From Candidatus Omnitrophota bacterium (GTDB lineage: Bacteria > Omnitrophota > Gorgyraeia > JABMRN01 > RBG-13-46-9): DNA of 43,652 bases. Location of the stretch: NCBI GenBank assembly GCA_016782425.1, contig JADHYN010000008.1, forward strand, positions 1 to 43,652, in the 5' to 3' direction. The notes below the pieces were generated by a model that was given only the letters and a program-made list of their open reading frames with translations, ran no database searches and was not told the DNA's origin. Both the position numbers and the translations under genes were made by a program. The stretch's first letter is position 1; each line of letters begins with the position of its first letter. Of this stretch, positions 7,643 through 43,652 are shown piece after piece.

Positions 7643-8041
7643 ATGCCATCTGACGTAACAGGCAAAAAAGCTAAAATCGCTATTATAGATGATGAAAAAG
7701 CTTTAGTCGAAACTCTAAAATCCTTTTTAGAAGAAAGGGGTTTTTCTGTAATTAGCGCATATGACGGCGCAAGCGGCCTCGAATTAATAAAAAGAGAAAA
7801 ACCAGATATCATTATATTGGACATTACTATGCCGGAATTGGATGGCAGAGATGTCTTGATACAATTGAAAAAGAACGAAGATACAAAAAGCATTCCCGTT
7901 ATAATGCAAACCGTAAAAAACGAGCCGTTTGACGTGGATTACGGGATGGAATTAGGTGCGGATGACTACCTGCCTAAGCCGTGCGAGGTACACCGTTTAT
8001 TAAAACACATTGACGCTATCCTGGAAAAGAGAAAAGGATGA
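7643..8041 (+). CDS. Stand-alone receiver response regulator 5
   Basis: A single receiver domain of 132 residues: acidic cluster IDDEKA, phospho-acceptor Asp in ILDITMPELDG, and KP in YLPKPCEV. The switch position reads MQTVKNEP. TATAAT at 7616-7621 and AAGGGAGCG precede the start. It is followed by a PilZ protein 6 nt downstream, so a phosphorylation signal and a cyclic-di-GMP effector are probably co-expressed. The cognate kinase could be the one at the left end of the window, but it is not adjacent. Confidence 0.87.
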   Translation: MPSDVTGKKAKIAIIDDEKALVETLKSFLEERGFSVISAYDGASGLELIKREKPDIIILDITMPELDGRDVLIQLKKNEDTKSIPVIMQTVKNEPFDVDYGMELGADDYLPKPCEVHRLLKHIDAILEKRKG

Positions 8042-8047
8042 CCGCCC

Positions 8048-8440
8048 ATGAGTCATAACGAAGAAGTATCATATGGTGGATCCGAAAGAAGGCAATGTAA
8101 AAGAATCAGAAAGTCTTTTGTCATGCGCTTCCGCCAAAAAGATGATGCGGAAGGCGGCTGGAGCATGGTGACGACGAAAAACTTAAGCGCAAAAGGAGCG
8201 ATGTTTACTTACAATAAACCCCTGCCCAAGGACAGCTTTTTGGACCTGAAGATAAACTTTCCCAATATAAACGGACCCATAGAATGCATGGCTAAAATAC
8301 TGCGTTTTGAAAAATATCCGAACAGCTTGCTTTTTAACACTGCTGTTACGTTTACGGATATCGCTGAGAGCGCGAAAAATATAATCAACGAGACAGCTGA
8401 ATCATTCTATCTGCGAAAGGCGGATAGAATCGAACCGTGA
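8048..8440 (+). CDS. PilZ-domain cyclic-di-GMP-binding protein
   Basis: A 130-residue PilZ protein. The c-di-GMP-binding signature is present: an Arg-rich RRQCKRIRKSF at residues about 15-25 and the loop NLSAKGAMF at about 52-60, matching RxxxR and [D/N]xSxxG. Beta-strands continue through IECMAKILRF. In the family such stand-alone PilZ proteins act as adaptors for motility, polysaccharide export or stress responses. The window also encodes a REC-GGDEF cyclase (38446-39342) that could supply the ligand. Confidence 0.87.
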   Translation: MSHNEEVSYGGSERRQCKRIRKSFVMRFRQKDDAEGGWSMVTTKNLSAKGAMFTYNKPLPKDSFLDLKINFPNINGPIECMAKILRFEKYPNSLLFNTAVTFTDIAESAKNIINETAESFYLRKADRIEP

Positions 8441-8477
8441 AGTAGCCCTAAAACGTGTTAAAATTATAGCAATATAG

Positions 8478-8669
8478 ATGATAAAGACTATAATAAGGGA
8501 AGTACTGATATTGCTCGCCTTTGTCCTTCTGGGCATAGCCGGATACAAGATCACCATTTTTGCAAACATATACCTACCGCTTTCAATTACGGGAATTACC
8601 ATGCTCGGAGTGGCTGTAATCGGATACCCGTTATTTTTATTGATCCGTATCATATGGCCCAAGAAATGA
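8478..8669 (+). CDS. Small two-TM membrane protein
   Basis: A 63-residue protein with two hydrophobic segments (residues about 8-28 and 34-57) and a basic C-terminus ending WPKK. No family recognised. No Shine-Dalgarno is visible; a TATAGC hexamer ends 7 nt before the ATG, which fits a leaderless transcript like several others in this window. Confidence 0.6.
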   Translation: MIKTIIREVLILLAFVLLGIAGYKITIFANIYLPLSITGITMLGVAVIGYPLFLLIRIIWPKK

Positions 8670-8767
8670 AAATAGCAACGTTCTGGCCCAGCCGGTAGTA
8701 AAACGGGTGCGCTGGATATGCGAGTTGCCTTACAAGGATTAAAAAATTTGGGAATGTCTTAAAGAAA

Positions 8768-8807
8768 AATAAGGGTGAATAAGGGGAGATAAGGGTTGAT
8801 AAGGGGC
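8768..8807. repeat. Tandem 10-bp repeat, four units (RATAAGGGKN)
   Basis: Four head-to-tail decamers: AATAAGGGTG, AATAAGGGGA, GATAAGGGTT, GATAAGGGGC. The same purine-rich text recurs in the coding linker at 17073-17186. The 8670-8901 gap holds this array, a palindrome and the promoter of the next gene, and otherwise nothing recognisable. Confidence 0.75.
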
Positions 8808-8823
8808 AGGCTTAAGCCTGCCC
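8804..8823. terminator. 20-bp perfect palindrome, possible terminator
   Basis: GGGCAGGCTTAAGCCTGCCC is a perfect 20-bp palindrome; as RNA it would fold to an 8-bp stem with a TTAA loop, followed by TACTGTTTTA. It lies directly after the decamer repeat. The tail is poor in U, so a bidirectional terminator or a repeat element (REP-like) are both possible. Confidence 0.5.
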
Positions 8824-8848
8824 TACTGTTTTATGGGACGGGAATTGG

Positions 8849-8878
8849 TTGCCTTTTCGAAAAACACCGTGTTATAAT
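8849..8878 (+). promoter_or_regulatory. Promoter of acyltransferase gene (duplicated promoter block, copy A)
   Basis: TTGCCT (8849-8854), 18-nt spacer, TATAAT (8873-8878), then an AAGGAGTTAGG ribosome-binding site at about 8888-8898. The whole block of about 50 nt closely matches the block at 12015-12066. Confidence 0.65.
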
Positions 8879-8901
8879 CACTATTCATAAGGAGTTAGGA
8901 C

Positions 8902-9777
8902 ATGAAACGGATCAGGCATTTTATTGAGTATATTCTTTTACGCGCAATGATGGCGCTCGTCAATTTTTTCCCTATCACTATTTCTACCTGGATATCAAGA
9001 AGAATGGGAGATGTTCTTTTTTTGATATTATCGAGTAGAAGAAAAGTTGCCCTTAACAATCTTACCATTGCTTTCTGTAATACCAAATCTGATAGGGAAA
9101 AAAGAAAAATTGCCTTAGAATCTTTTCGTCATTTGATGACTTGCTACATGGAGCTTTTCAGGTTGCCTAAATTCGTAAAAGTGTCAGACAAACACGTCCA
9201 TCTTAATAATTCCGAACTTATTGACGAAGCTTTAGCCAGGGGTAAGGGGATAGTTCTTGTCTTGACGCATCTCGGCTCATGGGAATATCTTTCGTTTCTC
9301 GCGAAACAAAAGAAAAGCCCTGCTACCATATTGGGCAGGATTATCAGAAATCCTTATATCTACAAATGGGTCGAATCGTTAAGAAAAATAGGGGATTTGA
9401 GATATAAGAACAAAGACATTGGTATAAGGTGGATTTTTTCAGAGCTTAAACAAAATCACATGGTAGGTATTGTGATTGATCAATGGGCAGGTAACGAAGG
9501 GCTATGGATCGACTTCTTTTCCAGGCCAACTTCGACAACCTCTCTCCCGGCACGCATGGCAAAACATACAGGAGCTGCCCTTATTCTTGCATATTGCGTT
9601 AGGGTAGCAAGCGGAGAATACGAAATTTACGTAGAACCTGAAATACCTGTTAACAAAGACGATGATAACTGGGTAGAAAACACAACGAAAGAGCTCAACC
9701 GTATTGTGGAGCGCAAAATTCGCGCCTTTCCGGAACAATGGATGTGGATGCATAAACGCTGGAAAAATAAAGGATAA
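8902..9777 (+). CDS. LpxL/HtrB-family lysophospholipid (lipid A-type) acyltransferase
   Basis: An inner-membrane acyltransferase of the LpxL/LpxM superfamily that transfers an acyl chain from acyl-ACP to a lipid A precursor or related lipid. There is a hydrophobic N-terminal segment at residues about 7-28. The catalytic H-x4-E motif reads THLGSWE (residues about 119-125), and the conserved IDQWAGNEG segment lies near 195. The length of 291 is normal. The start follows AAGGAGTTAGGAC. Its nearest neighbours do not reveal the acceptor; similar enzymes also occur in polyene and other acyl-lipid pathways, and this window contains a type II ketosynthase operon, but 30 kb away. Confidence 0.85.
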   Translation: MKRIRHFIEYILLRAMMALVNFFPITISTWISRRMGDVLFLILSSRRKVALNNLTIAFCNTKSDREKRKIALESFRHLMTCYMELFRLPKFVKVSDKHVHLNNSELIDEALARGKGIVLVLTHLGSWEYLSFLAKQKKSPATILGRIIRNPYIYKWVESLRKIGDLRYKNKDIGIRWIFSELKQNHMVGIVIDQWAGNEGLWIDFFSRPTSTTSLPARMAKHTGAALILAYCVRVASGEYEIYVEPEIPVNKDDDNWVENTTKELNRIVERKIRAFPEQWMWMHKRWKNKG

Positions 9778-9789
9778 AAGGAGGGCGCA

Positions 9790-10284
9790 GTGGAGATATT
9801 TGATGCTATAGCAAAAAGGGCAAGCGTGAGAGAGTATAAAGGCGAACCCGTAGATAAGGCGCTTCTTGAAAAACTCGTGGATGCCGGCCGGCGCGCGCCC
9901 AGCGCAAGAAAAGTAGAGCCATGGGAATTTATTGTTGTAACGGATCAGAAGGCACTCAAGGAGCTGGGCCGTATAGCGAATACAGGTTCTTTCATAAAGG
10001 ACGCCGCAGCTTGCATTGTTGTATACTCAAGCGATACTAAATACTATCTTGAAGACGGCGCAGCGGCTACGGAGAATGTACTCATTGCGGTCTCGGGCCT
10101 GGGCCTTGGGGCGTGCTGGGTCGCGGGGGATAAGAAACCCTACGCGAGCGAAGTGTCTGCACTTTTAGGCGTGCCGAAGGAGTTCAAGCTGATAAGCCTC
10201 ATTCCGGTAGGATGGCCGCTTAAAGAACCCTGCCAGGAAAAGAAAAGAAGCCTCGCGGATGTCCTGCACCGGGAAAAATTCTAA
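9790..10284 (+). CDS. Nitroreductase-family flavoprotein
   Basis: A 164-residue FMN-dependent nitroreductase-like oxidoreductase. It has the family N-terminus AIAKRASVREYKGEPV with the Arg-rich FMN-phosphate-binding segment, RRAPSARKVEPWEF (residues about 35-48), and the C-terminal GLGACWVAG and IPVGWP motifs. It starts with GTG at 9790 after AGGAGGGCGCA. The substrate is not predictable. The gene lies 12 nt after the acyltransferase and probably shares its transcript. Confidence 0.88.
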   Translation: MEIFDAIAKRASVREYKGEPVDKALLEKLVDAGRRAPSARKVEPWEFIVVTDQKALKELGRIANTGSFIKDAAACIVVYSSDTKYYLEDGAAATENVLIAVSGLGLGACWVAGDKKPYASEVSALLGVPKEFKLISLIPVGWPLKEPCQEKKRSLADVLHREKF

Positions 10285-14981: not shown

Positions 14982-16904
14982 ATGGATAGGAATATTTGTA
15001 AAGTTTTCGCGGAAAGAGTGCTCAAGCATCCTCAGAGCATTGCCATAGAGTGGAAAAAGGACAACCGCTGGGTAAGGATATCTTACGGCGAGCTCTATAA
15101 GAGTATAAAGGTATTAAGCGCTGCTATATCGGGCCTTTACGGAATTAAAAAGGGCGAGAAGGCCGCTATCTTAATAAGCAACCGGCCCGAGTGGCCGGTA
15201 GTTTTTTTTGCTTTGCTTTATGCGGGTGCTATACCTGTACCGATCAACCAGCATGGCGTTTTTGGAGAAATCGAGAATATCCTGGCGGATTCAGAATGTA
15301 AAATCGCGTTCACAGAAGGCAAAATCCCAAACATAAAGATTAAGACCGTAGAGATAGATTCAAGCGAATTTAAACACGCATTTGACTTGTTCCCGGAAGG
15401 CGACAGCGTCACGGAGGCTGATATGACAAGCGACGCCTGCATTATGTATACCTCCGGAACCACCTCAAGCCCCAAAGGCGTAGTGCTTTCACACGGGAAC
15501 CTCTTATCGAATAGCGATTCGCTTTACAAGCTTGGGCTCATGAAGCCGGGGGATGGCGTTGTAGCGGTTCTCCCGCTTTATCACACTTACGCGCTGGTTG
15601 TTACTACTCTTGCCCCGCTTCTTTACGGCGGCAGAGTGATATATCCGGGCAGCATGCGCAGCGAAGAGGTTCTACTTTCCATCAAGGAAGCGCGCGGAGC
15701 TATTTTTATAGGCGTGCCGCTTATTTTTAACGCTTTTCACAAGGCCCTAAAGGATTCGCTTAAAAAGATGCCCGGCTTGGTTCGTTTTTTGATTGGAAAA
15801 ATAGCGGATCTTTTATACGCAGTGCGAAAAGAAACAGGTATAAATCTCTCGAGATATTTCTTTTACAGCGTTCACCAGCGCTTCGGGAAGCATATGTACA
15901 TATTGCTAAGCGGCGGCTCAAAGCTCAAAAAAGAAATTGAAATCGAAATGACCAAATTCGGTTTTACTATACTGAACGGCTACGGCCTTACCGAGACCTC
16001 ACCCGTTTTAACGATGACCCCGCTTAAAAAACCGAAAATCGGATCCGTAGGCATTCCTATAGAAAATGTCGAACTTAAAATAGGACCTAAGAACAAGAAG
16101 GGAACCGGAGAAATACTTGTTCGCGGGCCGAATGTCATGAAAGGATATCATAAAAAAGAAGAGCTGACACGCCAGGTCATGGAGAATGGGTGGTTTAAGA
16201 CGGGGGATATCGGATACCGAGACGAAGAAGGGTATTTATTTCTTACAGGAAGGATGAACGATCTCATTACTCTGGAACTGGGATTAAACATATATCCGGA
16301 TGAGATAGAGAGCGTTTATTCGGCCGGGGTTCCGCTTAAAGAGATATGCGTTTTTGACGCCCCTTCCGAGAGAGGCGTGAAAAAAACGCCTGTTCTCTGG
16401 GCCGTTGCGGTTCCTGATATGGAATTTTTTAAAAAGAAAGGCATAATTAACCCGTATGACACAATAAGAGAGGCGTTTAAAAAGGCTTCGAGAGGATTGA
16501 GCATTCCCGAGAGGCTCATGGGATTTTCGCTGACTCTTGAGGTATTGCCGCGCACGCTTTTGGGAAAAGTTAAAAGGCGCGAGGTTAAGAAGCTTCACGT
16601 CTCCGGCGGAATCAAGGAAACCTTTCCTGTGTCCGAGAAGCCTGTCATGGCGGAAGACCTGGAGATATTAGAGCATCCGGAAGCCGGAAAGATAATAGAC
16701 TGCTTGAAGAACCAGACGAAGGTCAAAGAAATAACCCCGCGCGATTCTTTCGAACTGGACCTGGGTATTGATTTACTCGGGAGAGAGGAACTTGCCTTTG
16801 AACTCGAGAAAAAGATTGGCCTCGTGATAGAAGAGAAAGAGATGATCTCTATCTTTACGGTCGGGGAATTGATAGAGCACGCCCGGAAAGCGAAAAAAGA
16901 TTAA
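14982..16904 (+). CDS. AMP-forming acyl ligase fused to degenerate ACP-like domain
   Basis: An ANL-superfamily enzyme that would activate a fatty or aryl acid as acyl-AMP. Core motifs are YTSGTTSSPKGV (near residue 156), NGYGLTETSP, TGDIGYRDEEGYLFLTGR, and a Lys-containing TLLGKVKR near the C-terminal lobe. Residues about 565-640 are an acyl-carrier-protein-like domain (FELDLGIDLLGREELAFELEKKIG). At the site where carriers have DSL with the phosphopantetheinyl Ser, this protein reads D597-L598-L599. The codon is TTA, one base from the Ser codon TCA. The domain therefore cannot carry an acyl chain in the usual way and may be structural, a docking module or decaying. TATACT at 14953 precedes the start. 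Confidence 0.88.
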   Translation: MDRNICKVFAERVLKHPQSIAIEWKKDNRWVRISYGELYKSIKVLSAAISGLYGIKKGEKAAILISNRPEWPVVFFALLYAGAIPVPINQHGVFGEIENILADSECKIAFTEGKIPNIKIKTVEIDSSEFKHAFDLFPEGDSVTEADMTSDACIMYTSGTTSSPKGVVLSHGNLLSNSDSLYKLGLMKPGDGVVAVLPLYHTYALVVTTLAPLLYGGRVIYPGSMRSEEVLLSIKEARGAIFIGVPLIFNAFHKALKDSLKKMPGLVRFLIGKIADLLYAVRKETGINLSRYFFYSVHQRFGKHMYILLSGGSKLKKEIEIEMTKFGFTILNGYGLTETSPVLTMTPLKKPKIGSVGIPIENVELKIGPKNKKGTGEILVRGPNVMKGYHKKEELTRQVMENGWFKTGDIGYRDEEGYLFLTGRMNDLITLELGLNIYPDEIESVYSAGVPLKEICVFDAPSERGVKKTPVLWAVAVPDMEFFKKKGIINPYDTIREAFKKASRGLSIPERLMGFSLTLEVLPRTLLGKVKRREVKKLHVSGGIKETFPVSEKPVMAEDLEILEHPEAGKIIDCLKNQTKVKEITPRDSFELDLGIDLLGREELAFELEKKIGLVIEEKEMISIFTVGELIEHARKAKKD

Positions 16905-38445: not shown

Positions 38446-39342
38446 ATGAATAAAAAGACTAAAATCCTTGTATGCGATGACGAGAAGAGCATACGCAGCG
38501 TGCTGAAGGTTATTCTCGAGTCCGAAGGGTACGAGGTCATAATCGCCTCGACCGGCAGGGAGGCCGTAGAGATTTTCAAGAAAGACCCACCGTCTCTCAT
38601 TCTCCTGGATGTATCTATGCCCGGGATGACCGGTTTTGAGGTCATGGACAATATAAAGGAATATTTCGGAGAAAACTACATACCTATATTGTTTCTTACA
38701 GCGAGTATAAAAATAGACGATAAGCTCAGGGCCCTTCACCGAGGAGCAGTGGATTACCTGGTAAAGCCGGTGTCGCCAAAAGAGCTTATCCTGCGTATAC
38801 AGAATTTCCTTGAAATAAAGGCAAAACATGATGAGCTTAAAAAAGAAGCCACTTTCGACTGGATGACAGGGGCCCTGAACCGCGCCCACTTCATAAGGCA
38901 GGCTCGCGAAGAGCTCGACAAGGCCCTGAGGAATAACTTTTCGGTAGCTATCATTCTTCTGGATATAGATAATTTTAAAGAGATAAACGACACGAAAGGC
39001 CACGCTGCGGGGGATAGGGTCATAAGGGAGTTCGCTGACAGAATAAAGAAGCTTATTCGGAAAATAGACCTTTTCGGCCGTTTCGGCGGGGACGAATTCA
39101 TAATAATGCTTTCTCACAAGACCGAAGAAGAGGCTAAAAGCGTCTCAGAAAGGCTTCTTAGCATGTTGAGTAAGCCCATTGTCTTTGAAAAGGAGAAGAT
39201 ACGGGCAACCGCTAGCATAGGCATATCGCAAAAAGAGGTTGGAAGCGCTCCATCTGACCTTGAAAAGCTTACCCAGCTTGCTGATCAGGGCCTCTATGCT
39301 GCCAAATCCAAAGGCGGCAATACCTATATTGTTAAATCCTAA
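38446..39342 (+). CDS. REC-GGDEF diguanylate cyclase
   Basis: 298 residues: a receiver domain at about 5-120 (CDDEKSI acidic cluster, phospho-acceptor Asp in LILLDVSMPG, KP in VKPVSP) and a GGDEF domain at about 135-296. The active site is G214-G215-D216-E217-F218, and the product-inhibition I-site is present as R205-K-I-D208. It should make cyclic-di-GMP when phosphorylated. The PilZ protein at 8048 is a possible effector. No ribosome-binding site is evident at ATG 38446. The cognate kinase is not adjacent. Confidence 0.93.
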   Translation: MNKKTKILVCDDEKSIRSVLKVILESEGYEVIIASTGREAVEIFKKDPPSLILLDVSMPGMTGFEVMDNIKEYFGENYIPILFLTASIKIDDKLRALHRGAVDYLVKPVSPKELILRIQNFLEIKAKHDELKKEATFDWMTGALNRAHFIRQAREELDKALRNNFSVAIILLDIDNFKEINDTKGHAAGDRVIREFADRIKKLIRKIDLFGRFGGDEFIIMLSHKTEEEAKSVSERLLSMLSKPIVFEKEKIRATASIGISQKEVGSAPSDLEKLTQLADQGLYAAKSKGGNTYIVKS

Positions 39343-39655: not shown

Positions 39656-39850
39656 ATGACAAATAGTAATAAGCCAAGTCTCATGACGATCGACGAGGTC
39701 GCGAAGTATCTGCGCCTTAAGAAGGTAACTATTTACAAGCACGTGCAGGACAGGAAGATTCCGGGCTTCAAGGTCGGATCAGCGTGGCGGTTCAAAAAAA
39801 CATCCGTAGATAAGTGGATCACGGACAAAGAACACAAAAATAACAAGTAA
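39656..39850 (+). CDS. Excisionase-family small HTH DNA-binding protein
   Basis: 64 residues of the HTH_17/excisionase (BldC-like) type: LMTIDEVAKYLRLKKVTIYKHVQDRKIPGFKVGSAWRFKK followed by DKWI, the full winged-helix signature. Such proteins are recombination directionality factors or small transcription regulators. No integrase is in the window. The strong promoter and its position 36 nt before the ketosynthase operon favour a regulator of that operon. Confidence 0.9.
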   Translation: MTNSNKPSLMTIDEVAKYLRLKKVTIYKHVQDRKIPGFKVGSAWRFKKTSVDKWITDKEHKNNK

Positions 39851-39886: not shown

Positions 39887-41125
39887 ATGGAAAAAAGAAT
39901 TGTTATTACAGGAATAGGCGTATTAGCGCCGAACGGGATCGGGAAAAATGCGTTCTGGAAGGCGCTCAAAGAAGGCGTATCCGGAATAAAGCCTGTTACG
40001 CTTTTCAATATGTCTAATTTACGGACAAAATTAGGCGGGGAGATAAGCGATTTGAACCCGGAAGCAATGCTTGGGCCAAAGGGGCTGCGTAATTTAGACA
40101 GGACCACAATTCTTGCACTAGCAGCTTCAAAGCTGGCGTTAGAAGATTCAAAGCTTACATTCCCTATACCTGAAGATGATACTGATAGCTATGGCGTTTC
40201 CCTTGGGTCTACCCTTGGAAGCGTACGCTCAATAAGCGAATTCGACAAAGAGTCACTTCGGGAAGGGCCACGCGCAGTAAATCCGGCACTTTTCCCTAAC
40301 ACGGTTATAAATTCTCCGGCAAGCCATATAGCGATACGATTTAATATACAGGGGTTCAACAGCACCATTGCGACAGGATTCTGCTCGAGCCTGGACGCTA
40401 TTTATTACGCGCTTAACATGATGAAGCTTTATGATTATTCTGTCGTGCTAGCGGGAGGCGTGGAGGAGATGTGCGAGCAGACTTACAAAGGGTTTTATAA
40501 ATTAGGCGAGCTTTCCGGATCGAAGGCGGGAAGAGAAGAAATAAACTGCCCTTATGATAGAAGAAGAAACGGCATCATGTTCGGAGAGGGGGCTTCACTC
40601 ATTATTCTGGAAGAGCTGAATCACGCCAAAGACAGGGGCGCGAAGATTTACGCGGAGATTCTTGGATATGGCACTTCTTTTGACCCTAAAAGCCAAAACA
40701 TTTGTAACCCCAAAGCCGAGGGCGCTACCGAGGCGATGAAGAATTGCATACACGACGCCGGTATGCAGGGCGAAGATATAGATTACATAAGTTCAACCGG
40801 CAATTCTACGCTTGATTGTGATGTCATGGAAACAAGGGCGATAAAAAATGTGTTCAATAAGCGCGCCAAGGAAATTCCGGCAAGCGCCATAAAATCAATG
40901 ATAGGAGACAGTTTTTCAGCAGGCGGGGCGATGAACCTGGCCGCTTCGATTGGCGCGCTTTCCGAGAGCTTCATGCCGCCCACGATAAATTACGAAGAGC
41001 CGGACCGGCGATGCGACCTGGATTACGTGCCGAATGAATCGCGGGAAGCGAAAGTTGATAAAGTTCTTATTAATTCGTTCAGTCCTACGGGGAATAATTC
41101 GAGCCTGATCATCGGAGCGATATAA
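39887..41125 (+). CDS. Ketosynthase-like protein lacking all catalytic residues (chain-length-factor-like)
   Basis: A 412-residue thiolase-fold protein of the beta-ketoacyl-ACP synthase II family. The N-terminus MEKRIVITGIGVLAPNGIG is canonical. Gap-free alignment with the downstream ketosynthase puts Phe165 (ATGFCSSLDA) at the nucleophile Cys; a Cys follows at 166 but out of register. The first active-site His is Thr304 (SSTGNST for SAHGTGT) and the second is Asp341 (KSMIGDSF for KSMLGHT). It should not condense on its own. This is the pattern of a KS-beta or chain-length factor that pairs with a true ketosynthase. The TAATG overlap couples it to the ketoreductase. Confidence 0.87.
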   Translation: MEKRIVITGIGVLAPNGIGKNAFWKALKEGVSGIKPVTLFNMSNLRTKLGGEISDLNPEAMLGPKGLRNLDRTTILALAASKLALEDSKLTFPIPEDDTDSYGVSLGSTLGSVRSISEFDKESLREGPRAVNPALFPNTVINSPASHIAIRFNIQGFNSTIATGFCSSLDAIYYALNMMKLYDYSVVLAGGVEEMCEQTYKGFYKLGELSGSKAGREEINCPYDRRRNGIMFGEGASLIILEELNHAKDRGAKIYAEILGYGTSFDPKSQNICNPKAEGATEAMKNCIHDAGMQGEDIDYISSTGNSTLDCDVMETRAIKNVFNKRAKEIPASAIKSMIGDSFSAGGAMNLAASIGALSESFMPPTINYEEPDRRCDLDYVPNESREAKVDKVLINSFSPTGNNSSLIIGAI

Positions 41126-41868
41126 TGTTATTAAAGGATAAAGTAGCTATAGTTACAGGCGGATCGCGTGGCATAGGGCGCGCTATTGTAGAGGAATTTG
41201 TGAGGGAAGGCGCTAATGTCGCTTTTAATTTTTTAAAAAGCGAAGAAAAAGCGCTCGAGCTGAAAAAAGAAATTGAGAAAAAAGGGCGTAAGGCCCTTAT
41301 CTTTCGCCAGGATGTCAAAGACTACGAGGCTATAAAAGTAATGGTGGAAGGCATAAGAAGCGAATTCGGGCGACTTGATATTATCGTGAATAATGCAGGG
41401 ATTCTTCGCGATAAAGCCCTGATGCTAATGGAGGAGCAGGACTGGGAGGACGTGATAGCTACCAACCTGTCCGGCGCGTTCAATCTTATACGGGCCTCAA
41501 TAGTTACGTTTATGAAGCAAAAAAGCGGGAACATCATAAACCTGACTTCTGTAGCCGGTATTAAAGGTATGCCGAGGCAGGTCAATTATTCTGCCAGTAA
41601 GGCAGGGATCATAGGCCTTACGAAGTCGCTCGCGCGGGAAGTGGGCTCCTATAATATAAGGGTCAACGCTATCGCGCCGGGTTACATAGATACGGATATG
41701 GTGAAGGATTTGAAAGAGAACTTTAAGAAGGAGATCCTTAAGGCTATTCCCTTGGGGAGATTTGGACGGAGTGAGGAAGTCGCACGCGTCGCGTCATTTC
41801 TCGCTTCGGATCAGGCTAAATACGTCACCGGTCAGGTGATAACCATTGACGGGGGTTTGGCTATGTAA
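41125..41868 (+). CDS. fabG: 3-oxoacyl-ACP reductase (FabG-type SDR)
   Basis: A short-chain dehydrogenase of 247 residues. The NADPH motif is VTGGSRGIGRAI, NNAG is at about 86-89, the catalytic Ser is in NLTSVAG and the Tyr-Lys pair in NYSASKAG; the C-terminus QVITIDGGLAM is typical of FabG. It reduces 3-oxoacyl-ACP in fatty-acid or polyketide elongation. It lies inside the type II operon, overlapping the previous gene by 1 nt and 13 nt before the ACP gene. Confidence 0.92.
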   Translation: MLLKDKVAIVTGGSRGIGRAIVEEFVREGANVAFNFLKSEEKALELKKEIEKKGRKALIFRQDVKDYEAIKVMVEGIRSEFGRLDIIVNNAGILRDKALMLMEEQDWEDVIATNLSGAFNLIRASIVTFMKQKSGNIINLTSVAGIKGMPRQVNYSASKAGIIGLTKSLAREVGSYNIRVNAIAPGYIDTDMVKDLKENFKKEILKAIPLGRFGRSEEVARVASFLASDQAKYVTGQVITIDGGLAM

Positions 41869-41881
41869 ACGGGGGTGTAAT

Positions 41882-42139
41882 ATGCCCGAGGTAATTATGG
41901 AAAATTTAGAAAAAGAACTAAGAAGTATAATAGCGGAGATTACGGAGATAGAGCCGGAAAAGATTACCATGGAGGCGCGCTTTGTGGAGGACCTTGGCAT
42001 GGACTCCATGATGGCTCTCGAAATCCTGGCTTCGATCGAGAAGAAGTATAAGATTCAAATTCCGGAAAGCAAGCTCATGTCTTTGCTTAGTTTGAAAGAC
42101 ACAGTAAATCTGACTACCGAATACCTTAAGCAGGGGTGA
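41882..42139 (+). CDS. Acyl carrier protein
   Basis: 85 residues, acidic and helical. The phosphopantetheine attachment Ser is present in EDLGMDSMMALEIL. The variant DSMMALEI rather than DSLDTVEL suggests a specialised carrier rather than the housekeeping AcpP. The start at 41882 follows GGGGGTGTAAT; an internal ATG at 41897 is a weaker alternative. It carries the growing chain for the ketosynthase pair, reductase and dehydratase of the same operon. Confidence 0.9.
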   Translation: MPEVIMENLEKELRSIIAEITEIEPEKITMEARFVEDLGMDSMMALEILASIEKKYKIQIPESKLMSLLSLKDTVNLTTEYLKQG

Positions 42140-42140
42140 T

Positions 42141-42563
42141 ATGATTACTATAGAAGAAATTAAAAAACTTATTCCGCAGAGATACCCTTTTTTAATGATC
42201 GACAGGGTTATGGAACTCGAAACGGAAAAGTCCATAACAGCGTATAAAAACATATCAGCAAATGAATCGTTTTTTAACGGGCATTTTCCGGATAATCCCA
42301 TTTTCCCCGGAGCGTTCACCGCTGAAGCAATGGCGCAGGCAGCTTGTGTGTTACTCAAGAAAAGCATCCCGGATCTGGAAGCGAAGGCTTTTTATGTAAC
42401 AAATATAAAAATACGGTTTTCAAAAGTCGTAATTCCCGGTGACCAACTAAAAGTAATTATAAAAACAGTCAAGATGACGCGCATGGGCGGCGTATTTGAG
42501 ACAGAAGCAAAAGTTAATAACGATACCGTAGCAAAAGGAGAAATGACCTTTGCGTGTAAATAG
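42141..42563 (+). CDS. fabZ: 3-hydroxyacyl-ACP dehydratase (FabZ-type)
   Basis: A hot-dog-fold dehydratase of 140 residues. The N-terminus IPQRYPFLMIDRV and the catalytic GHFPDNPIFPGAFTAEAMAQAA contain the His and Glu of the FabZ active site. The product would be trans-2-enoyl-ACP. No enoyl reductase is seen in the visible part of the operon, which would leave double bonds in the chain if none follows beyond the window. It overlaps the next ketosynthase by 14 nt. Confidence 0.9.
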   Translation: MITIEEIKKLIPQRYPFLMIDRVMELETEKSITAYKNISANESFFNGHFPDNPIFPGAFTAEAMAQAACVLLKKSIPDLEAKAFYVTNIKIRFSKVVIPGDQLKVIIKTVKMTRMGGVFETEAKVNNDTVAKGEMTFACK

Positions 42564-43652
42564 AAGAGTCGTGATAACAGGTTTAGGCGCTGTTACGTCC
42601 ATCGGGATAGGAAAGGATGATTTCTGGAAGAACCTTATTTCCGGCACATCCGGTATAAGCGAGATAGAACGGTTTGATACCTCAAAATTTGGTATTAAAC
42701 GCGGTGGAGAAGTAAAAAATTTCAAACCGGAAAACTTTATGTCTAAATCGACTGCAAAAAAAATAGGCCGTGGTTCACAACTGGCAATAGCGGCTACAAA
42801 ACTTGCCCTTGAAGACGCGGATATCAATTTAAAAAAACATAAAGCAAAAGATCTGGGTATTATCATAGGAAGCACAATGGGCGAGTCGCCTTATATAGAA
42901 CTTATTGACAGATTTTGGATACAAAAAGGTGAAGAGGGAGTTTATTCTTCCAACGTAGCCAAATTTCCGGTTAATAATCTTTCAGATAACGTAGGGTATT
43001 GCTTTGGCATAACAGGTGATAATTGCGTGATACCTACAGCTTGCGCGGCCGGCAATTATTCTATAGGATTTGCCTTTGACCTTATACGCACCGGCAGGCG
43101 TGAAATGATGCTTGCAGGTGGTGCTGATCCTCTTTCCAGGCTTGCCTTTACCGGTTTTCAGAGGCTCTTTGCCATGGCGCCTGAAAAATGCCAGCCATTT
43201 GATAAGAATAGAAAAGGAATGATAGTCGGCGAAGGCGCTGCTATTCTGGTTCTCGAGCCGATAGAGGATGCACTTAAGAGAAAAGCCTTTATATATGCTG
43301 AAATTTTAGGCTATGGTTTAAGCTGTGACGCGTTCAACATGACGATACCCAGCAAAAAAGGAATAAGAAAAGTTATAGAAAAGGGTTTAAAAAATAGCAG
43401 TGTAAAAAAAGAAGAGGTGGATTACATATCTGCCCATGGGACCGGAACCGGGCCGAACGATAAAACAGAGACAGCATCCATAAAAGACGTATTCGGAACT
43501 CTTGCCGGAAGCATACCTATAAGCTCGATAAAGTCAATGCTGGGGCACACTATGGGAACAGCAAGTGCGCTGGAGGCAATAACCTGTTCTCTGGTTATTT
43601 CCAATAGCGTTATTCCCCCCACCATGAATTATGAAACGCCTGATCCGGAATG
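42550..43652 (+). CDS. Beta-ketoacyl-ACP synthase, catalytically complete (partial, runs off window)
   Basis: The reading frame is open to the end of the window. The start is most likely TTG 42550: an in-frame TGA lies just upstream at 42544, and AAAAGGAG ends 9 nt before it, giving MRVNRRVVITGLGAVTSIGIG. The active-site triad is complete: Cys165 (PTACAAGN), His296 (SAHGTGTGP) and His333 (KSMLGHTMG). It should be the condensing subunit that pairs with the inactive paralogue at 39887. The C-terminus is missing (about 40 residues by comparison with that paralogue). Confidence 0.9.
   Translation, partial: MRVNRRVVITGLGAVTSIGIGKDDFWKNLISGTSGISEIERFDTSKFGIKRGGEVKNFKPENFMSKSTAKKIGRGSQLAIAATKLALEDADINLKKHKAKDLGIIIGSTMGESPYIELIDRFWIQKGEEGVYSSNVAKFPVNNLSDNVGYCFGITGDNCVIPTACAAGNYSIGFAFDLIRTGRREMMLAGGADPLSRLAFTGFQRLFAMAPEKCQPFDKNRKGMIVGEGAAILVLEPIEDALKRKAFIYAEILGYGLSCDAFNMTIPSKKGIRKVIEKGLKNSSVKKEEVDYISAHGTGTGPNDKTETASIKDVFGTLAGSIPISSIKSMLGHTMGTASALEAITCSLVISNSVIPPTMNYETPDPE

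Follow-up and report, generated by a model that had tools for sequence, protein, structure and literature searches.

The closest described relatives of the locus considered here are the ketosynthase pairs of anammox bacteria, in which a ketosynthase (KS) is encoded beside a homolog that has lost its active site. In the kuste3603-3608 cluster these are the KS Kuste3605 and the non-canonical FabF Kuste3606 (Kuenenia stuttgartiensis), and the lost active site of the anammox partner was already described in 2009 by Rattray et al., who listed Val163, Asn298, Tyr300, Gly302, Lys328 and Glu333 for Kuste3606 and tabulated Phe163, Asn298 and Glu333 for Kuste2805 (PMC2649909). Desulfotalea, which has clusters syntenic with those of anammox bacteria, produces hydrocarbons (C31:8 and C31:9) rather than ladderanes (PMC2649909), and for Cariaco Basin Omnitrophota ladderane-type clusters have been annotated and their expression measured (PMC9902471). 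The stretch of DNA analyzed here (the window) is the entire 43,652-base contig C42 of a 1.32 Mb Omnitrophota metagenome-assembled genome (MAG; 82% complete, 49 contigs), and its 3′ end carries an operon in which a catalytic KS is paired with a non-catalytic partner resembling a chain-length factor (CLF). Judged from its sequence and that of its relatives, this is a real, conserved and functional KS-CLF operon of a kind already known from anammox bacteria.

The anammox KS and partner are 55% and 48% identical, respectively, to those of the window, and the anammox partner shares the pattern of loss, with a hydrophobic residue at the position of the catalytic Cys, a polar residue at the first His, a retained Lys and an acid at the second His. 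An acyl carrier protein (ACP) and a FabZ-type dehydratase are common to the anammox cluster and the window, and a CrtI-like gene is common to the anammox cluster and a sister operon on contig C35 of the same genome. The gene order differs, being HTH-CLF-FabG-ACP-FabZ-KS in the window (HTH, helix-turn-helix protein) and ACP-FabZ-KS-CLF-CrtI-radical SAM in the anammox cluster, where the radical-SAM/B12 gene is that of the Brocadia locus L120. FabG lies within the operon here, unlike in the anammox cluster, and the C35 operon has a thioester reductase, a GMC oxidoreductase and a nitroreductase in place of the anammox radical-SAM/B12 enzyme.

Type II polyketide synthases (PKSs) provide further points of comparison. 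The ishigamide-type highly reducing type II PKS (Iga10/11/12/13/16; PDB 6kxd-6kxf) combines, as here, a KS-CLF pair, an ACP, a ketoreductase (KR) and a dehydratase (DH) without an enoyl reductase, and Iga12 resembles the partner in having an acid at the second His position. The window CLF is ~24% identical to an Iga12-like CLF that lacks the Lys, and the C35 operon differs from the ishigamide type in having no nonribosomal peptide synthetase or amide tailoring genes and an added CrtI-like gene. Aromatic type II PKSs follow the same heterodimer logic with KS-alpha and KS-beta, and KS-beta is likewise without the Cys and both His, reading Gln-Asp-Lys-Arg where the window partner has Phe at the Cys position; they differ in that no cyclase or aromatase is found in the uncut C35 operon and that KR and DH would act in every cycle here. 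An earlier note on this DNA had compared the operon with aryl polyene synthesis, and the ApeO-ApeC system does share the polyene logic and a KS-CLF with KR and DH. Other systems are nearer, namely the anammox proteins described below and, for the KS, the ishigamide type. ApeC has only about half the length of the window partner (240 aa in E. coli CFT073, versus 412 aa), ApeO is distant in the tree, and the C35 operon is without ApeR, MMPL transporter, LolA or glycosyltransferase-type Ape genes.

Active sites and family of the ketosynthase pair

The operon lies on the plus strand and comprises genes for the 412-aa partner (39887-41125), a FabG-type 3-oxoacyl-ACP reductase (41125-41868), an ACP (41882-42139), a FabZ-type 3-hydroxyacyl-ACP dehydratase (42141-42563) and the catalytic KS (42550-43652, TTG start), which abut or overlap. 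Because contig C42 ends at 43652 the KS is truncated, with 367 of ~405 residues present. The KR, DH and variant ACP named in the earlier note are all present with intact motifs. FabG scores above the TIGR01830 cut-off and retains GGSRGIG and YSASK, FabZ scores above the NF000582 cut-off and retains GHFPxxPxxPGxxxxE, and the ACP (PF00550, E 8e-15) retains the Ser of its phosphopantetheine motif DSMMALE, a motif common to 31 of 64 ACPs from related clusters.

A recount on the translations places Cys165, His296, Lys328 and His333 in the KS and, at the same aligned positions of the partner, Phe165 (followed by Cys166), Thr304, Lys336 and Asp341, which agrees with the triad and the replacements first reported and adds the retained Lys, previously unmentioned. 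These positions were read as Cys/His/Lys/His in an alignment of 72 partners and 68 KSs with E. coli FabF. All 68 KSs (60 cognate and eight of a third kind described below) have C-H-K-H intact. In the partners the Cys position is F in 42, Y in 13, V in 12, M in three, I in one and A in one, and the first His is replaced by N (27), S (25), C (8), T (4), A (4), G (3) or D (1); the Lys is kept in 72/72 and the second His position is always acidic, E in 65 and D in seven. The conservation of this pattern across both sets of homologs argues that it did not arise by chance. A shift of the nucleophile to Cys166 was considered and set aside, the +1 position being Thr in 38, Cys in 17 and Ser in 13 of the partners. 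The view that loss of the Cys and both His is not the textbook set does not survive comparison with the Gln-Asp-Lys-Arg of aromatic CLFs or with the residues tabulated in 2009 for Kuste2805 (PMC2649909).

In line with the fold motifs noted earlier, the partner is confidently predicted to fold as a complete KS with both thiolase halves (pLDDT 91, pTM 0.91), and a structure search with this model recovered the KS fold, matching FabF structures at a TM score of ~0.95 without listing PDB entry 9s5h. Between two close relatives the partner gene has dN 0.10 against dS 1.8, pairwise dS being saturated for most comparisons that involve the window copy.

Sequence matches in the PDB connect the pair to a solved complex. 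The best match of the partner is 9s5h_C (E 4.5e-115) and that of the KS is 9s5h_B (E 2e-132), with Iga11 (6kxd_A) second, so that the two window proteins match different chains of one complex, 9s5h/9s5i, which also includes the ACP chain 9s5i_E. That chain is one of the three best matches of the window ACP, behind the top match 7qv0_D and alongside 7auf, and the best match of FabZ is 7qv0_A, a dehydratase co-crystallized with the ACP chain 7qv0_D. Chain 9s5h_C is 90% identical to a Brocadia sapporoensis protein and its residues Val163, Asn298, Tyr300, Gly302, Lys328 and Glu333 are the set listed for Kuste3606, and for these reasons we take 9s5h/9s5i to be, in all likelihood, the anammox Kuste3605/3606 complex. 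At the four catalytic positions it reads V-N-K-E where the window partner reads F-T-K-D.

Phylogeny places both proteins in the same context. In a careful tree from which the four catalytic columns were left out, the partner forms a clade with 9s5h_C, the Brocadia L120 partner and Nitrospirota partners (100/100); FabF is separate at 100/100, and aromatic KS and aromatic CLF each stand apart, with the aromatic KS-beta clade separate at 100/99. The window KS groups with 9s5h_B and the Streptomyces highly reducing type II KS (support 99 in a quick tree, 91/99 in the careful tree). The quick tree puts an Iga12-like CLF within the CLF clade, although its branch there is very long; its PDB match next after Iga12 is 9s5h_C. 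The evidence supports the earlier note in its view that this is no housekeeping fab cluster. The partner is not a housekeeping FabF, given that it has no Cys-His-His triad and lies outside the FabF clade, and a single clade of partner and FabF is weakly rejected (approximately unbiased, AU, test, p 0.04); a single clade with aromatic CLF is compatible with the same test (AU p 0.16). Nor is it a local duplicate of the neighboring KS (AU p 1e-59), and the term paralogue, as first applied to it, is appropriate in a deep sense only. From these sequence relationships the partner is assigned to a conserved anammox or 'ladderane-type' KS-CLF family with members in Omnitrophota, Nitrospirota and anammox Planctomycetota, and the conserved family, the trees and the two-chain match support the original proposal of a pair resembling KS-alpha and KS-beta.

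The sister operon, relatives and neighboring genes

The uncut second operon on contig C35 (locus L005, minus strand) has the order GGDEF response regulator, HTH_17 protein, partner, FabG, ACP, FabZ, KS and a thioester-reductase-family enzyme (TIGR01746), followed by a GMC oxidoreductase, a nitroreductase, a CrtI-family flavoenzyme and a histidine kinase. Its proteins are 74% (partner), 83% (FabG), 65% (ACP), 45% (FabZ) and 59% (KS) identical to those of the window. The C35 operon contains no enoyl reductase, and its open reading frames include no radical-SAM/B12 enzyme, the CrtI gene being followed by the kinase. It is AT-rich, and the window contig fits the genome composition. The window was considered as a contaminant contig and this was rejected on the match of its GC and tetranucleotide profile to the MAG, a match that a contaminant of the same family would also give.

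The assembly holds no second copy of the CrtI or thioester reductase gene that could continue the window operon. L073 and L076 are the loci closest to the window copy, with partner and KS ~70-72% identical. In both, the first recognizable genes 3′ of the KS encode a CrtI-like enzyme and a third ketosynthase, although in L073 some unrelated reading frames precede the CrtI-like gene; because both have them, a CrtI-like gene and a third ketosynthase are expected past 43652. The third ketosynthase is found beside the CrtI-like gene in many clusters (L073, 15092-16296; L076, 12283-13171; also L094, L098, L104, L106, L111, L113 and L117), has Cys-His-Lys-His intact where aligned and forms a very long branch in the tree. 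In many clusters, too, the CrtI-like gene is followed by a gene for a histidine kinase, all of these kinases belonging to one family (L005, 7558-9699; L017, 6673-8811; L020, 12023-14167).

Scanning named genomes turned up 79 loci, distributed over Omnitrophota, Nitrospirota/Thermodesulfovibrionia and Planctomycetota (anammox Brocadiales among them), with a few elsewhere. Of the related loci, 51 have 5.5 kb or more of downstream sequence; in these the KS is present in 45 and a CrtI-like gene in 38, and a kinase lies near 24 of the 51 partners. Other relatives encode an acyl-ACP-reductase-like protein (TIGR04058/PigE). In a survey of 285 sampled Omnitrophota genomes, with a partner threshold of E < ~1e-94 (FabF starts matching near 1e-92), the partner occurs in ~68-71 genomes as counted from the table, about a quarter, all of one class, a patchy distribution.

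Several loci depart from the common arrangement. In four genomes (L082, with the partner at 8001-9239, L085, L090 and L102) the partner is accompanied by FabZ and mostly FabG, without adjacent KS or ACP, beside riboflavin-synthesis-like genes, and these partners appear by sequence to be an orphan lineage of CLFs in housekeeping surroundings. In L019 (11979-15365 in G007, which belongs to the same family and is assembled as one contig) the operon ends after the ACP, without FabZ and KS; with an N-run nearby, this may be a scaffolding gap. Two Omnitrophota genomes (L161 in G034:C1 and L162 in G036:C18) carry tandem KS/CLF pairs akin to aromatic type II PKSs, in which the CLF reads Arg-Asp-Lys-Asn at the four catalytic positions.

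Directly 5′ of the partner the window encodes a 64-aa excisionase/MerR-like HTH_17 DNA-binding protein (39656-39850, plus strand; Pfam PF12728, E 2e-16), also found, at 55-78% identity, in the C35 copy and in family relatives, and this protein is a candidate operon regulator. A receiver-GGDEF response regulator lies near both operon copies (window 38446-39342; L005 18607-19488) and the operon of the relative L019 (8218-9108), which suggests control linked to cyclic di-GMP. A separate lipid-related stretch 23-30 kb upstream in the window encodes an LpxL-type acyltransferase (8902-9777), a nitroreductase (9790-10284) and an AMP-ligase that bears a carrier-protein domain at its C terminus (14982-16904).

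Proposed pathway and alternative explanations

Taken together, the data probably reflect a KS-CLF heterodimer of the anammox or 'ladderane-type' family, related to highly reducing type II PKSs, that builds a linear polyene on the ACP for subsequent modification by a CrtI-like enzyme. The 42550 subunit would carry out all decarboxylative condensations on its cysteine with the ACP docked, while the role of the 39887 subunit, which has no nucleophile, would be structural: it would complete the dimer and, by forming the distal part of the acyl pocket, determine chain length. Heterodimer formation and ACP docking are expected by analogy with 9s5h/9s5i and Iga11-Iga12 (PMC8358021, PMC7949117). The ACP would carry the chain, with FabG reducing and FabZ dehydrating each β-keto intermediate in every cycle, and because KR and DH would act each time and the uncut sister operon has no enoyl reductase, the chain would grow as a linear polyene, as in Iga11-type systems, whose polyenes arise through rounds of condensation, reduction and dehydration (PMC7949117). 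The polyene or partly reduced acyl chain envisaged at the outset fits this gene content and the kinship with the ishigamide type. The CrtI-like flavoenzyme, of a family that acts on polyenes, would then isomerize, desaturate or saturate the product, and the thioester reductase, or in other relatives the acyl-ACP-reductase-like protein, would release or reduce it, giving an aldehyde or alcohol. The polyene product, chain-length control and CrtI-like reaction are drawn from pathway logic.

Several observations weigh against this interpretation. To our knowledge no product of this KS-CLF family has been described from Omnitrophota. Enoyl reduction could come from a FabK-like enzyme on contig C49, which scores below its family cut-off. 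The partners of L082, L085, L090 and L102, standing without an adjacent KS, indicate that pairing is not universal. The heterodimer is supported by homologs, structure prediction having covered the partner alone, and the organism of 9s5h is assigned by comparison, the PDB listing giving none. Finally, Asp113 of Iga11, proposed to drive release for reduction by product repulsion, is Met in the window KS; two residues further on, at the position of Iga11 Glu115, 57 of 60 KSs share an acid with Iga11 that FabFs do not have.

The invariant Lys and acid bear on whether the partner is instead a catalytic helper that decarboxylates malonyl-ACP for priming, as has been suggested for KSQ domains and some KS-beta proteins, by means of these two residues. 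Retention of both in all 72 partners is a stronger constraint than a purely structural subunit obviously requires; yet both His that stabilize the decarboxylation transition state are lost, the Cys position is mostly bulky and hydrophobic rather than the Gln of KSQ, and the Lys and acid may merely maintain the local fold, which leaves a catalytic role unlikely. Slightly less plausible again is that the operon encodes a main fatty acid synthase peculiar to this lineage, perhaps one that supplies unsaturated lipids to the membrane, and not a secondary pathway. Just four KS genes occur in the assembly, all within the two operons with no FabF outside them, and plsX-fabH-fabD on contig C2 has no fabG, acpP or fabF neighbors. 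However, the MAG is 82% complete, the operon is patchily distributed, and a separate FabF, ~50-52% identical to that of E. coli, is encoded in other genomes of this class, three of which (G001, G005 and G007) belong to the same family, so the absence of FabF here more likely reflects an incomplete assembly.

That the operon makes ladderane-like cyclized lipids as in anammox bacteria is improbable, even though its KS, CLF, ACP, FabZ and CrtI-like genes are orthologous to those of the anammox cluster and ladderane-type clusters are annotated and expressed in Cariaco Basin Omnitrophota (PMC9902471). The uncut C35 operon has nothing equivalent to the radical-SAM/B12 enzyme encoded beside the anammox CrtI gene in L120, and the polyunsaturated hydrocarbons of ladderane-free Desulfotalea, made by a bacterium with syntenic clusters, favor a polyene (PMC2649909). 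A decaying duplicate without function, which the loss of every catalytic residue except Lys might suggest, is refuted by the conservation of the same active-site pattern across three phyla, and the open frame, confident fold and low dN relative to dS also speak against it.

Implications for the family

A dead ketosynthase partner is by itself unsurprising, and the invariant Lys and acid of this 'dead' enzyme bear on the requirements of a chain-length factor. How ladderanes are made has long been debated, and the KS-CLF core is genetically inseparable in anammox bacteria. The Omnitrophota relatives offer a natural comparison in which the core is kept and the radical-SAM gene is not in the uncut operon examined. 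It is possible, although we hold this only tentatively and think it on balance doubtful, that Omnitrophota and Nitrospirota have a widespread anaerobic polyene-lipid pathway whose KS-CLF-ACP-DH-CrtI core is shared with anammox ladderane synthesis and whose lineage-specific reductive tailoring leads to an undescribed class of lipid or hydrocarbon. If so, the anammox pathway would be a polyene pathway with radical-SAM cyclization added. If Omnitrophota do make linear polyenes, the shared core would be a polyene synthase and cyclization a later step.

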